Origin: Hyphochytrium catenoides
Taxonomy: Eukaryota; Sar; Hyphochytriomycetes; Hyphochytriales; Hyphochytriaceae
Reading direction: 5' to 3'
Length of the DNA stretch: 64,000 bases
Assembly (NCBI GenBank): GCA_900088475.1
Contig: FLMG01001570.1
Span: forward strand, 63,030-127,029
The notes under the pieces were generated by a model. That model worked only from the letters and a program-made list of their open reading frames with translations. It was not told the origin of the DNA and did no database searches. Position 1 is the first letter of the stretch; the number at the start of each line of letters is the position of its first letter. Position numbers and translations under genes: made by a program. Shown one piece after another: positions 57,211 through 64,000 of this stretch.

Positions 57211-57585
57211 CTAGAATAATGCATCCAGCGCCGCTCTGTCCTTGCATTCGTCCTCGCCAAGCTTCATCACAGGCTTGCCGTTATCCCACTTAATTAGAGT
57301 GGGTACTCCCGCGATTCTGAGGTCAGGGTTAACGCGATACGGGTGGGTATGTACTCCCTTCCATTCTTCCCTTTGTCCTACTAAGCATTCCACAAAGTAC
57401 GCGTCTGGATGCGAGCTGAAAGCATCTTTGATGGGCTTGCTCGCTTCCCTGCAGTCCGGGCACCAGGATTCGTTCGTTCCAGGATGATTGTTGGCCACAA
57501 AGTAGAGATAAAGAGGTTGATGGCTCTCAAGCTCCTTAAGCTTTGTCTCGAATTCTGAGGGCTTGGATATGGTGACAGACGGCAT
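57211..57585 (-). CDS. TXNDC17: Thioredoxin-like protein TXNDC17/TRP14 family
   Basis: TRP14-type protein disulfide reductase, fed by thioredoxin reductase in animals and acting on small disulfide substrates. From ATG 57585 the protein is 124 residues (MPSVTISKPSEFETKLKELE ...), the normal family length. The active site is WCPDC in GTNESWCPDCREASKPIKDA, the TRP14 signature that separates it from classical thioredoxin (WCGPC). Other blocks: YLYFVANNHPG, VECLVGQREEWKG, NPDLRIAGVPTLIKWDNG (with the cis-Pro), ending AALDALF, TAG 57211-57213. The frame is open upstream to about 57696 and has a presequence-like stretch (RRSVRSLPGVATAIRGFLSR) with an intron-like TTTCTAAAG just before it, so a longer, organelle-targeted form from an upstream exon is possible. 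Confidence 0.88.
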   Translation of the reverse strand: MPSVTISKPSEFETKLKELESHQPLYLYFVANNHPGTNESWCPDCREASKPIKDAFSSHPDAYFVECLVGQREEWKGVHTHPYRVNPDLRIAGVPTLIKWDNGKPVMKLGEDECKDRAALDALF

Positions 57586-58599
57586 CGTGCGAGATAGAAA
57601 GCCACGAATAGCAGTCGCCACGCCTGGCAGGCTTCGGACACTTCTTCTTGTGGGCGGCAAAATTGTTCCTTTAGAAAATGCAAGAGAATGAAGCAAATCA
57701 GAGATGTGACGAAGGAAGATGTTAAGCGTTGTATCCTCCTGCCGTCGTCTACAAGATCTTATTCTCTTGTCTCTGTGCAGTTGAGGCCTCTTCTTCAGTT
57801 CGATGGGCAGCTCCAGACGTCTTCTCAGTCTTGGCGATACGTAAGGCGCTGGTCTCCGCCCGTTGGGTCTCGACTGGATAGCAGGAAAGTTGAAAAATGG
57901 AGAAAGGTGCGAATGATCTTTTCTTCTTCCAAGAAGAGGAGGACAAACGCGAAACAGAGGGAGTTAGAGATGGGTGACGTTGAGAAAGAATGATCTATCA
58001 GATAGACTAAATAGGGAGAGGGTCTGAATAGATACATGCGCGATGCGTCAGAGAGCTCGAGATAACATGAACACGAGGCCTGGTTACTTGTACAAGTAGA
58101 GAGAGGGATATTGGTCAAGCGTGAGATTGTACAATGACGCTTTGGACTCGTCTAATTCCTGACTTTACGATCTCACCGGGTGCGCTGTACAGTACAGTAA
58201 CACCCTTGAAGCTGCCAATGCCAAAGCTCCAGCAGCCCACATCAGCACCGCATCAGACAGCTTCACGACCATCATCCCCGTCTCTATTGATCTCTCTCCT
58301 CCTTCTTCAACCTCCTCTTGGTGCTCATCGGGCACGCTATCCTCTCACCACGTGCTATCCCCCAGCTTGTAGCTTGTACGTGGCCTAGCTTGTCCCTCGG
58401 TCAGGCCTAGCGCTGCAAGCTTCGGAGCTTATCATAGTTCCATGGCGGCGATCGTGGCAGAGCTCCAAATACGATGAAGCTTAAACGACAGGAAGTAGAA
58501 GGTTTTTCTGAGCGAGAGTCACAGTAGCCTTTCCCCACGGCATATTGGTCAATAGAGCTTGCTGAAGCCTTGGGGTCAGGATCACGTCAAGGTTTAGCC
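57586..58599. promoter_or_regulatory. Divergent intergenic region between TXNDC17 and the FAR-acyltransferase gene
   Basis: 1.0 kb head-to-head spacer with both promoters and possibly an upstream exon of TXNDC17. A 101-codon frame on + (57688-57993) and an 84-codon one (58134-58388) show no family resemblance. Confidence 0.35.
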
Positions 58600-61500
58600 A
58601 TGGAGGAATTCTATGCCGGGAAGGTGATCCTCCTTACTGGAGGCACCGGATTTATAGGGAAGGCAAGTGGTTTTTCCTCCTCCCTTTCATCTCTGCGAGG
58701 CCTTTCCATCAATCAAGCATTATCAGCGTCCTACCTCTCTCCTTACACTGACCGTCTCTGCTTCCCCTCCATGGCTTTTTTTGCCACGGTTCTCCTCACT
58801 GAACTTTCTCCGGATTCCCCTGGGCTTAACTCACTTTGGCGACTGACACGTAACCCCATTACGTAGGTCATCATACAAAAGCTATTCAGCTCTTTGATGA
58901 TGATCGAGCGCTGCTACTGTCTAGTGAGGNNNNNNNNNNNNNNNNNNNNNNNNNNNNNNNNNNNNNNNNNNNNNNNNNNNNNNNNNNNNNNNNNNNNNNN
59001 NNNNNNNNNNNNNNNNNNNNNNNNNNNNNNNNNNNNNNNNNNNNNNNNNNNNNNNNNNNNNNNNNNNNNNNNNNNNNNNNNNNNNNNNNNNNNNNNNNNN
59101 NNNNNNNNNNNNNNNNNNNNNNNNNNNNNNNNNNNNNNNNNNNNNNNNNNNNNNNNNNNNNNNNNNNNNNNNNNNNNNNNNNNNNNNNNNNNNNNNNNNN
59201 NNNNNNNNNNNNNNNNNNNNNNNNNNNNNNNNNNNNNNNNNNNNNNNNNNNNNNNNNNNNNNNNNNNNNNNNNNNNNNNNNNNNNNNNNNNNNNNNNNNN
59301 NNNNNNNNNNNNNNNNNNNNNNNNNNNNNNNNNNNNNNNNNNNNNNNNNNNNNNNNNNNNNNNNNNNNNNNNNNNNNNNNNNNNNNNNNNNNNNNNNNNN
59401 NNNNNNNNNNNNNNNNNNNNNNNNNNNNNNNNNNNNNNNNNNNNNNNNNNNNNNNNNNNNNNNNNNNNNNNNNNNNNNNNNNNNNNNNNNNNNNNNNNNN
59501 NNNNNNNNNNNNNNNNNNNNNNNNNNNNNNNNNNNNNNNNNNNNNNNNNNNNNNNNNNNNNNNNNNNNNNNNNNNNNNNNNNNNNNNNNNNNNNNNNNNN
59601 NNNNNNNNNNNNNNNNNNNNNNNNNNNNNNNNNNNNGAGGCGACTCCGGCGGAGTTGGAGAAGCTAACTATCAACCTCATCAGCACCTACCCGAATACTT
59701 ACACGCTAAGCAAGGCCATGGCGGAGGTGGGTATTGGACATCCCGGTGCCTATGTGTCAAAGGTCCAGGGTGTAATCCTGTCCTGACGGAGGTGCTCAGG
59801 CTACCTTTCGTTGCCTTTTTGCCAGCTACCCCCAATATATTGCTAACCAAAAAGCCTACTCTGCGCCTATCTGTCTTTCTCGGTCTGGCGCCTATGCAAG
59901 TAGTCTGAATCTACCGTCCCTCTCTTACAGAATCTGGTGATGAGGCGCAGGGGGACGCTTCCCGTCATTGTCGTCCGGCCATCTATTGTGGGCGCGTCAT
60001 GGAGGGAACCATTCCCTGGATGGGTTGATAATGTCTCTGCAGCTGGAGTCATTTTCCTGGCGGCAGGGCTTGGGATGATGACCGTCATTCCAGGCAACCC
60101 AAGAGGAATCGCAGATCTTGTACCGGTAGATATTGTTACGGCAGTGGTTCTCGTATCAATAATGCAGGTAAAATATTGGGCTGCTTTGGCTTGGAGGTTT
60201 ATTTCCTGTCTTCTGTCGATCATAAACCCCAGCTTGAAGTCAATGACTGGTAATGGGAGTCGCTTTCTCTTCTCATTTCGGTCCGCTTCACCCTAACTTT
60301 ATGTACCAAGCCCTTGTACTGATCCGATCTCCTTGGACACAACGGTTTACTCAACATCAGTACGGGGGTCGCAATGACCTGACCGTGATCCATGCGTGCA
60401 CAAGTGATGAGCGTGTTAACCCGATGAAGTGGAGAATCGCTGGGAAGGTTATGGATCGGGATTACTTTAGGAAGAACCCTTGCGAGCAGCGAATAGGTAA
60501 GGAGAGGCTCAGCACTGAATAACCATCGCTCATGGATTGTCATACTGTTCAACCAACATGTAGGGCCTAATCATATCTCGATGATACAAAACGAGCAGTA
60601 CTATGAGCTGCAATGGTTTCTTCGCTATTCGCTTCCGTCCAGCCTATACTCGTTCATGGCCTCCATTTTGGGAGATGCACGGACTACGGAGCAGGCAGCC
60701 AGGTGAGATTCTACCCTTATAGTCCTTGGTAGCCGTCGTGAAGTATGCATCTCCTACGCAGGTACCCTTTGTTAATGTGATGCACTAACAACGTTCATTA
60801 CCTTATACAGACTTAGGAAATTAACCTGGAGAGTGCGGAACATTACAGAGGCATATCGGCCTTTCACCCAGAATGAGTGGATTTTCGATTGCGAGAAACT
60901 CCTCATCCTTAAGGGATCTTTGGCTGGAAGGGATGCAGATACCTTCAACCTAGACGCCCGGGAGATCGTTTGGGAGAGGTAAGGGTCTATTAGCCTCCAT
61001 ATATTCTTCTCACCATGTTCCTGTGTCCTTGGCTATTGAGATCTTTTCTTCACGTGTACCGTCATACCTTAGGATTTCGCGGATCTTCCTCTCGGATCCT
61101 TACTTTCTTCGATCTCAACAGGTATCTCCAGAACTTCTGCTATGGTTTGAAGAAGTGGGTGCTTCACGAGGATATGGTTGATGTGTCTGAGGAGGCTGTG
61201 AAACATACTGAACTGGCCCTAACCACCGGAAGGATTCTAGAGTGGTAAGCGAAGCATGAACACAGCAAAACGATGCCCTTGGGTGAAGAAGGGATGCTTG
61301 CGGGCTGAGTAACAGCTCCATGAAAGAGAAAAAGCGGTCTGGCCCCAACTTTTAGGCGTCAGCATGCACCAACCCCATAGAAGTAGCAAAATAGAGTATG
61401 CGGAGGGGGACCCGTAACCACGAAGGCTAAAGTGCTCTTTGCCTTAGGGATCCTGACCATCATCGAATCTCCTTCCCTGGGTTGTTTGCCGACTTATCGT

Positions 61501-64000
61501 GGGCATACACCAGCAGCCGCAAACCCGGCTATACTAAATCAGGGCTACTTGGAAGGTAGGTTGAAACGGAGGGGAAGACAGAATGGCTCAGGAGTCTGGT
61601 TGAGAGCAGGATTTGGAGTCACCACGAGTCAAGGACAGCTTAAACAAAGAGAAAAGGAAGTATATGGTAGTTGCGAAGATGAGCTGCTGGTACAGTTCTA
61701 GACAGAGAGATATCAATACTTGGATCTTAAAAGAAGGAGGTAGTCAAACTTATCTTGTTCCCATCCTAGGTTCATGGGCCTGACAGGCTGGAAAGAAGGA
61801 ATGAATCATGAGGCTAGTCATGTGCCTCGCAAAAGGCAAAGAAAGTGGGCCGAGGTATGCTTAATGCATCTAGGGCTTACCTTCCACGGCAGCAGTGGTT
61901 ACGATCACAATGTGCCTATCTTCCATTTAGATTCCTTCTCCTGACGTCTCTTCTTCTATCTGCAAGCCGGTGAGGCCGCAGGAGTATCTGTTATGGCTTA
62001 TAAGTGAGTGACATCTTCCCCATTGTGACAGATGAAGAATCTAGTTCTAGATTCCGATCGAGTGCAAGCCGCCATCGGGGAGGAGGCGAAAAGATTGGGT
62101 GGCGATGGTGGTTTGGCCGCTGCAAGGGCACTCAAAATCTATAAAGCCATGGCGGCTGACATTCAATACCCGACAGCTAGAGCGCTAGCCTGGTCGCTGA
62201 GAAAGGTCTTGTAACCATTTTGCTCTACGCTCTTAGCGCTTTGGACGCGATCTCTTGCCTTCTTTTCATTGTCGTGCTATTATCTTCTGCTGCCTTGCGG
62301 TCTCCTTTTCATCACTGGATGACGTCGTTGACAGAACTTCTGGGCTCGTCCACCTCATGCAGATATGGCGAAAAATCTACGACGGTATAATTGTGGATGA
62401 GCCGGGAATCAATCGGGTCAGACATCTGGCCAAGGACAAGAACCCCATTGTAAGTCAATACTCTCCCTTTATCGATAATCTCTCTAATAAGCCATCCTTG
62501 CTTAAAGTCTAACACTCCGTTTAGCCCTCTTCTTGCCCGACTCCTTGCCTTGGATCAGTGCTATTGTCATTATGTGGTACTGATATCTGTTGTCGGGCAA
62601 CTTGTGCTTCCTTCTCTGTCAGCACCCATCGCGGTCTCCACCACCTGCCTCCTTTGTCGAACTGTATTACTTAGAGTCTCAGTCACGAGATTGGTTTGGC
62701 TAAGCTTAAACTTCTTTACTCTTTACCTCCCTTGCGGCAGGTCCTCATTCCAACCCACCGCTCCTACATCGACTTCCTCCTTCTCTCCTACATCTTCTTT
62801 GCCTACAATCTACCCATCCCGTACATAGCAGCTGCGGAAGACTTTCAGAACCTGGGGAAGATGTCTCAACTTTTGCAAAGGGCAGGTGCTTTTTTCTTGA
62901 AGAGAAGAAAGGAAGGAGAGGCTGAGAAAAGGCGAGATGAAGACTTGCTGTACTACGCTATATTTACAGAGTATACGCAGAGGCTTCTAATGGACGGACA
63001 GGCCGTCGAGTTTTTTATAGAGGGAACCCGAAGCAGAAGTGGAAAGCAGCTAAAGCCTCGCTTCGGTCTACTGAAGATAGTGATGGACGCGTTAGAGCGT
63101 GTGACCCTAGAGCGAGGGGATAGGAGCGCTGAAGCGATTGACGATGTGCACCTTGTCCCCATAACGATTGATTATGAGAGGCCTCTGGAAGTGTCCTTGC
63201 ACCAGAAAGAACTACTTGGTAGGCCACCTCTAGAAGTGCTATCCCCCTTCTTATAATCAATCATCTTCTCTCTTACCTTACAAACTCCACTACTTGCTGG
63301 TCGCTACAAGTTTTATCGTTCATTATCCCTCCTTGTATCTGAGCCAATCCCTAAAATCAACATAGGGGAGTCCAAGGTCCCCGAGTCCATAAGTTCTCTT
63401 CTTCGAGCTAGCCAAGTCCTCGGCTCTCAGTTCGGTTCAATTGCAGTCAGCTTTTCAAAACCCATCTCCCTCAGAAGTTTCCTGTCAGAGCAGAGCAATA
63501 AAGGTAAGAAAGTCAGGAAGATCGCTGGTTTCAGTGCTAGGCTCTTCCTTTCTTTTGCCGCCTTGTGCCTTTCGTTCTGAATGGGGCCTATGTCCTTATT
63601 TTCGCTGTGTGTTCTCTGCGGTAATTGTCCAGCTACCATGGTCAAACTTCTAACGCCCGAAAACCCACTGTCGTCAACCCTTTTTCGCAGGGAGTAGCCC
63701 CTCGACTCCCTCTCATTCGTCTTTGGTCAAGGCTAATGCTCCAGTGGAGCAGTTAGGCTACCTCCTGACAGAGCGCCTAATCTGCTCATCATCATGCATG
63801 GGCACGCATCTTGTGGCCGTACTTCTTCTGTTACATCGAAGTGGGATTAGCAAAGGGGAGCTAGTGGAACGAACGGATTGGCTACGAAGAGAAGTCGAGA
63901 GACGAGGAGGAACTGTCCACTGCGCACAAGGGATGAACAAGAAGGCTGTCGTCGATAGGTAACGCGTCCTGTATAGCTCTACTTCTACTTCCGAACGATT
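58600..64000 (+). CDS. Fatty acyl-CoA reductase fused to DHAP/glycerol-phosphate acyltransferase (partial at right edge)
   Basis: The N-terminal half is an alcohol-forming fatty acyl-CoA reductase: MEEFYAGKVILLTGGTGFIG (Rossmann TGxxGxxG), IIQKLFSS...CYCLVR, [707-N gap], TYPNTYTLSKAMAE (YxxxK), LPVIVVRPSIVGASWREPFP, VDIVTAVVL, INPMKW-type VNPMKWRIAG, and the FAR C-terminal domain FTQNEWIFDCEKLLIL ... FNLDAREIVWE (to about 60980) with YLQNFCYGLKKWVLHE (61122-61246). The second half (from about 62032) is a GNPAT/PlsB-type acyltransferase: VLIPTHRSYIDFLLLS (HX4D), RAGAFFLKRR, VEFFIEGTRSRSGKQLKPRF and VPITIDYERP, then YLLTERLI...CMGTHLVAVL. A linking exon at 61771-61855 joins both halves in phase. 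Together they make the fatty alcohol and acyl-DHAP for ether lipids. The 3' end lies outside the window. The alternative is two adjacent genes, the second starting at ATG 62032. Confidence 0.82.
58663..58866 (+). other. Non-canonical GC-AG intron (intron 1 of the FAR-acyltransferase gene)
   Basis: The exon GGATTTATAGGGAAG is followed by GCAAGT rather than GTAAGT, and the next exon begins after TACGTAG at 58867. This join keeps the family sequence GFIGK|VIIQKLFSS in phase. The nearby GT (58668) would shift the frame and lose the similarity. Confidence 0.65.
58930..59636. other. Assembly gap (707 Ns) inside the fatty acyl-CoA reductase
   Basis: Ns replace the part of the reductase between CYCLVR and the YxxxK region. 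Frames of 257-266 codons across it are made of X only and are not real. Confidence 0.95.

Follow-up and report, generated by a model that had tools for sequence, protein, structure and literature searches.

We analysed a 64,000-nucleotide stretch of the genome of Hyphochytrium catenoides (the window; positions 63030-127029 of contig C760) and found at its end a gene in which a fatty acyl-CoA reductase (FAR) and a dihydroxyacetone phosphate (DHAP) acyltransferase (DHAPAT) are joined. At the level of sequence the fusion is real, and the gene very probably encodes one bifunctional peroxisomal enzyme, FARAT. The gene structure, the order of the domains, the catalytic motifs, a conserved junction, a terminal AKL tripeptide and an AGPS gene on another contig were all observed here. 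The fusion itself had been described before in several groups of protists; the window gene confirms and extends this known protist enzyme.

Gene structure and domains of the fusion

The assembly scanned comprises 42.5 Mb in 1,105 contigs. Exons were read on the forward strand with the sequence past the window end added, and the exon chain was checked by a script. The visible gene has at least 21 exons, all on the forward strand, and runs from 58600 to 65832 in window coordinates, its 3' end lying 1.8 kb beyond the window end on the same contig. The FAR exons come first and the acyltransferase exons follow, spliced in frame. All but one of the 19 fully visible introns are GT-AG (18), the exception being the GC-AG intron behind exon 1; the reading frame is kept at every visible junction (the join across the gap of Ns described below is not one of these). 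Exons 3 to 21 give 1,048 codons with no stop until the terminal one, which follows the C-terminal residues FPILAKL.

The FAR part begins with exon 1 (58600-58662), which holds the start codon and the Rossmann motif (MEEFYAGKVILLTGGTGFIGK; compare MEQFYAGKGLFVTGGTGFIGK at the start of the relative P0012) and ends in the GC donor, and continues with exon 2 (58867-58929; VIIQKLFSSLMMIERCYCLVR), which enters a gap of 707 Ns (58930-59636). Judged from P0005, P0006 and P0038, the three out of seven relatives where a pattern matched both flanks, the gap hides ~146 FAR residues, so that the missing stretch fits in 707 bases and leaves space for introns. Behind the gap, exon 3 (59637-59726) carries the FAR catalytic motif NTYTLSK, exon 4 (59931-60167) the end of the NAD_binding_4 domain (PSIVGASWREPFPGWVDN), and exon 5 (60361-60496) further FAR sequence. 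By Pfam the Sterile domain begins in exon 6 (60564-60702) and it continues in exon 7 (60811-60978); exon 8 (61122-61244) closes the FAR part with RILEW. Exon 9 (61448-61555) and exon 10 (61770-61854) encode the interdomain segment treated below. The acyltransferase part comprises exon 11 (62032-62205; N-terminal part of DHAPAT, donor GTCTTG), exon 12 (62363-62449), exon 13 (62741-63218) with the acyltransferase core (HRSYID, FFIEGTRSRSG and VPITIDYE; E 8e-22), exon 14 (63366-63503), where the GPAT_C domain begins, and exon 15 (63691-63958), where it goes on. Exons 16 to 21 lie past the window in locus L009 (64116-64233, 64374-64568, 64727-64911, 65131-65305, 65409-65519 and 65704-65832).

This exon chain bears out the initial annotation, made from the letters of the window, in that FAR and acyltransferase exons are consecutive on one strand and spliced in frame, that the motifs TGGTGFIG, YTLSK, HRSYID and FFIEGTRSRSG are present, and that the gap measures 707 bases. 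The end of the FAR block, placed there at 61246, is at 61244, and the gene continues past the window end with six more exons. The identification as a FAR-DHAPAT fusion is supported by the exon chain, the Pfam domains, the trees and the motifs.

In the 1,011-residue string behind the gap (without exon 9), Pfam matches occur in the order NAD_binding_4 (E 1.5e-19), Sterile (1.6e-17), Acyltransferase (2e-23) and GPAT_C (7e-70), and exons 1 and 2 together match NAD_binding_4 at E 2.6e-8. The FAR half shows the Rossmann motif TGGTGFIG, YxxxK in the form YTLSK and a Sterile domain after them, with part of the half inside the gap; the acyltransferase half has the HX4D and EGTRSRS motifs together with GPAT_C.

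A protein search returned 36 matches at E <= 1e-3 among 7,993 scored candidates, and 12 of the 36, oomycetes among them, span 100% of the post-gap query. A profile search gave 375 matches, the best 120 listed ones including Hondaea, Durusdinium, Paramecium, dictyostelids, a "Percolom..." entry and Mucoromycota; with one acyltransferase half there were 325, and animal DHAPATs, Acanthamoeba and Capsaspora are among the best 120 listed. We fetched 247 sequences and sorted them with two in-house profiles into 144 with both domains, 16 with FAR only and 87 with the acyltransferase (AT) only, and FAR is N-terminal to AT in 144/144 two-domain sequences. Identity to the oomycete proteins, the closest named relatives, is 44-46% over >1,050 residues, and to P0004 50% over 934. 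The structure model of the relative P0006 (mean pLDDT 83, pTM 0.81, 29 sequences) is confident in both domains and matches the glycerol-3-phosphate acyltransferase (GPAT) structure GPAT1 8e4y (TMt 0.82) and rice FAR 7eoz (TMt 0.80).

Trees were built for the AT half (a careful one of 50 rows and a quick one) and for the FAR half (quick, 64 rows). In the careful AT tree the window is sister to P0004 and the oomycetes (100/98) within a larger fused group, and in the quick FAR tree it again stands with P0004 and the oomycetes (94). Fused homologs with FAR first were found in other protists, the window grouping with oomycetes in both domains. Fused enzymes and animal DHAPATs (44 rows) are split from six GPAT rows at 100/100 in the careful AT tree, which argues that the AT half is kin to DHAPAT rather than to GPAT.

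Exon 9 and the interdomain segment

The initial annotation had drawn a single intron of ~525 bases from 61246 to 61771, followed by a linker exon at 61771-61855 joining both sides in phase. That linker exon exists and is in frame, with true limits 61770-61854, and it is preceded by another exon inside the supposed intron. Exon 9 is 108 nt long, has the acceptor TTAG and the donor GTAGGT, has phase 2 at either end and encodes DPDHHRISFPGLFADLSWAYTSSRKPGYTKSGLLGR; the junction phases around exons 9 and 10 are 2/2, 2/2 and 0. Because 108 nt is a multiple of three, the earlier chain stayed in frame without it. Both blastp and conservation place this exon in the gene: aligned relatives carry 36 additional residues here. 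The 17-base word from its start occurs a single time in the genome.

Exons 9 and 10 (the second with FMGLTGWKEGMNHEASHVPR and ending in WAE) together encode a 56-residue interdomain segment, DPDHH...HVPR (model residues 341-396). The segment was found in 50 of the 247 fetched sequences (blastp E <= 1e-3; 56-91% identity), all 50 of them fused and all with the segment between the two domains; at the same threshold no match was found in the 16 FAR-only or the 87 AT-only sequences, which are mostly animal and bacterial, with some unlabelled rows and one oomycete row (P0151). When the AT half was placed in a tree with 51 fused relatives, the 12 segment carriers proved to be exactly the relatives in the 13-row window clade (support 99), and the remaining 39 fused rows lack the segment. 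In an alignment of 22 hand-picked fused clade members, no other stretch of 56 columns is so well conserved (rank 1 of 1,121): mean pairwise identity is 77% in the segment, 48% in FAR behind the gap, 44% in AT and 62% in the AT core.

Searched alone, the segment has no Pfam or PDB match even at E 10, and in the P0006 model (residues 485-540) its block means are 35 to 51, that is, of low confidence. High conservation together with low model confidence may be what is expected of a partner-binding part; a shallow alignment may alternatively be the cause of the low confidence. The junction might dock or order both domains, or bind AGPS.

An SDLxWA-type motif in the segment recurs in a comparable position N-terminal to HRSYxD in 109/136 fused proteins and 54/63 animal-like separate ATs, counts to which chance may contribute a part, since the pattern is loose. 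Among other AT-only sequences it occurs in 2/12; these two, P0182 and P0231, are animal by name and were misclassed by the length rule, leaving 0/10. This distribution points to the segment as a native N-terminal element of DHAPAT that became longer in the window's clade, and to intron 8 as the true domain boundary.

Predicted pathway and alternative readings

The N-terminal FAR domain would convert long-chain acyl-CoA to fatty alcohol and the C-terminal domain DHAP to acyl-DHAP, and the terminal AKL would carry both activities together into the peroxisome. There AGPS would exchange the acyl for the alkyl chain, yielding alkyl-DHAP, the first ether lipid. We infer that the gene is transcribed as one mRNA and that its protein has both activities and is imported; any channelling between the domains would come on top of this.

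Several features of the genome fit such a pathway. The AGPS gene lies on contig C423; its exon peptides, strung together, gave a match to peroxisomal AGPS 4bby with E 2.8e-69. Two other candidates for AGPS were set aside: the FAD-oxidase on C70 was rejected, its peptides matching D-lactate dehydrogenase, and the candidate on C1046 was not adopted (a GEHGVG-type motif by eye). No Sterile match other than the window gene was reported for the genome. Strong NAD_binding_4 matches also occur in locus L010 (C799:119500-127500), partly in an open frame of 1,538 residues and with no Sterile match, presumably belonging to another kind of acyl reductase.

AKL is an end of the peroxisomal targeting signal type 1 (PTS1) kind, and AKL and similar C-terminal tripeptides function as PTS1 signals. 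Ends of the form [SAP][KR][LMI] are present in 79/99 fused proteins of at least 1,000 aa, as against 0.38% of internal tripeptides. The SKL end of Dictyostelium FARAT supports the PTS1 role according to the account in PMC7375469. In the genome, two Pex2/Pex12 matches exceeded the cut-off, one of which runs through nine stops. For the plasmalogen step (PEDS1) no match was found in the genome; the control was equally silent, and the result is hence uninformative.

Could the two halves belong to separate products? If intron 8 were retained, translation would stop at an in-frame TAA directly after exon 8, giving a FAR-only protein with W as its last residue, and in-frame ATGs at 61774 and 61801 (exon 10) or 62032 (exon 11) could start a DHAPAT. 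A Saprolegnia diclina "variant" of 539 aa (P0151) is AT only and begins at a Met of the segment (MHHEASHVPR) equivalent to 61801, the window protein having Met at the same place, so that an AT-only isoform may exist. We nevertheless regard two products or two genes as very improbable, because exon 9 stands between the halves and has its homologs in the interdomain segment that fused proteins carry. The junction phases agree as well, and the segment has no match in the 103 single-domain sequences, although by their composition these are a weak control for the window's clade. P0151 contains only the last ten residues of the segment and shares 97% identity with the fused P0001, which Saprolegnia has as well; it may be a gene model cut short or a true isoform with AT only, and it slightly lowers our confidence in a single fused enzyme.

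A fused gene that serves other products, with FAR alcohols going to wax esters and the acyltransferase working on glycerol-3-phosphate for ester lipids, is likewise very improbable. The activities are predicted here, and the nearest solved acyltransferase by sequence is GPAT1; the AT half, however, clusters with DHAPATs, another GPAT_C gene is present at C375, AGPS occurs in the genome, the window protein has a PTS1-type end, and characterised relatives supply ether-lipid synthesis as described in PMC7375469 and PMC9113324. The C375 gene (locus L034) has the motifs CHKSHLDY and DIEFFLEG, looks GPAT-like by eye and is probably an ordinary GPAT. Less probable still is an assembly chimera or a pseudogene. 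There is an N gap within the gene, but it lies in FAR, away from the junction, and the sequence runs unbroken through the junction and on either side of it; no premature stop interrupts the 1,048 codons, and splice sites and motifs are intact.

One bifunctional peroxisomal FARAT remains the reading that we prefer. Besides the in-frame TAA, the Saprolegnia variant and the composition of the single-domain set, several points count against it. The GC donor after exon 1 and the GTCTTG donor after exon 11 are unusual splice sites, and because the gap covers part of FAR, a defect is possible there. Pex3 stayed below the cut-off in the genome (24.1 of 27.6 bits). GPAT1 is also the nearest solved structure by sequence, and it is from kinship that DHAP rather than glycerol-3-phosphate is taken as the probable acceptor.

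The gene's upstream neighbour (57211-57963, reverse strand) is a TXNDC17-like thioredoxin gene. Downstream, in L009 from about 3500, follows a gene that looks like a coiled coil by eye and whose first open frame gave no Pfam match.

Known relatives and the origin of the fusion

The fusion was reported in 2011 in Tetrahymena, Paramecium, Dictyostelium, Polysphondylium, Phytophthora infestans and Naegleria with the Gene deFuser approach, and its pattern was called odd in the account (PMC3143110). The Tetrahymena protein is described in PMC9113324, which cites Dittrich-Domergue 2014 for TtFARAT, so the precedent named in the initial annotation is correct. Its further proposal, a distant lineage, holds with respect to ciliates and fails with respect to oomycetes, to which the window is close and in which the fusion was already known. 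Like the predicted window protein, TtFARAT/ART1 is described as having FAR and then DHAPAT in one chain, as supplying ether-lipid precursors and as peroxisomal (PMC3143110, PMC9113324); the two named ciliate rows, P0102 of Paramecium and P0172 of Moneuplotes, differ in having no match to the 56-residue segment.

Dictyostelium FARAT (fatA) was tested genetically and is peroxisomal, and the mutant is reported to be without ether storage lipid, with 13% residual in one measurement (PMC7375469). It shares the domain order and a PTS1-type end with the window protein, SKL there and AKL here (PMC7375469), whereas the amoebozoan rows P0057 and P0021 have another, shorter junction. The fused oomycete proteins (P0001, P0005, P0038 and others) are whole-length homologs whose junction segment is 79-89% identical in the named oomycetes; they differ in the 44-46% overall identity, and the window branches outside the oomycetes and P0004. 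For the cryptophyte Guillardia, PMC9244630 gives a peroxisomal FAR, AGPS and separate GPAT/DHAPAT candidates, so that the fusion may not occur in every protist.

In bacteria, the Myxococcus xanthus operon MXAN_1676-1674 is described as encoding AGPS, a FAR-GNPAT-like protein and a reductase (PMC9131029). By that description MXAN_1675 resembles the window protein in its N-terminal FAR-like and C-terminal GNPAT-like parts and in its place beside an AGPS gene (PMC9131029). The bacterial fused proteins compared here (from L035 and L093, MXAN_1675 itself not being among them) and four that group with them differ in size, at 819-926 aa, and are distant; P0128 gave no Sterile or GPAT_C match. In two metagenome-assembled genomes, of Sericytochromatia (L035:1109-6695) and of Deltaproteobacteria/Myxococcota (L093:29-5673), an AGPS-like gene, a FAR-AT fusion and an NAD-epimerase-like reductase follow one another in this order (AGPS and reductase recognised by eye), a gene order that looks by eye like the M. 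xanthus operon type of PMC9131029. On their stem of 2.7 changes per column, the bacterial fused rows have no settled place in the quick AT tree, and the eukaryotic fusion may or may not have come directly from bacteria.

Other fused proteins were met on the way. Mucoromycota have a divergent FAR-AT fusion of the same order (P0117, P0118, P0120 and P0121; 1,464-1,545 aa), three of which are in the trees on long stems. The dinoflagellate Durusdinium and the thraustochytrid Hondaea (P0015, P0044) group at 100 in both halves, presumably through transfer or contamination. The fused proteins P0070, P0073-P0076, P0078 and P0081, 1,121-1,122 aa long and ending in PKL or PKI, lie on contigs of up to 303 kb. 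A bacterial host for them was not adopted: P0070 and P0078 group with the ciliate rows, and a bacterial-genome scan gave mostly AT-only matches (best 80 of 146 relatives).

Capsaspora bears on the origin of the fusion. The AT half of its fused protein P0166 stands with seven animal DHAPATs (100/99 in the careful and 90 in the quick AT tree), and in the careful tree the branch that sets off the other 36 fused rows has a support of only 72/58. Its FAR half keeps TGATGTVG, has YTFSR instead of YxxxK and gave no Sterile match at E 1e-3. Since this FAR branch is long (4.7 changes per column in the quick FAR tree), the AT placement is better founded than the FAR placement. The nine separate FARs (animal where named) fall into a single clade (100), whose position among the fused FARs is not settled by that tree; the tree is thus no demonstration that animal FAR derives from the fusion. 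Among open-access papers we found none on Capsaspora together with dihydroxyacetone phosphate acyltransferase, most subscription journals lying outside this search. The decayed FAR half and the AT placement together suggest that animals lost an ancestral FAR-DHAPAT fusion, with Capsaspora as a possible intermediate of its fission.

Jointly, we tentatively propose, as a picture with somewhat less than an even chance of being right, that the fused enzyme was the ancestral eukaryotic DHAPAT, that animal GNPAT would be the remnant after decay of FAR, with Capsaspora as the intermediate, and that the junction, most constrained in the window's stramenopile-like branch, would act as an AGPS-binding or relay-like element. 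The odd distribution of the fusion, which the account in PMC3143110 ascribes to multiple gains or losses, may then stem from an ancestral fusion dismantled by animals. In the window's clade conservation is higher at the junction than at the active sites, which makes the junction a candidate for docking FAR, DHAPAT and AGPS or for a relay between them.

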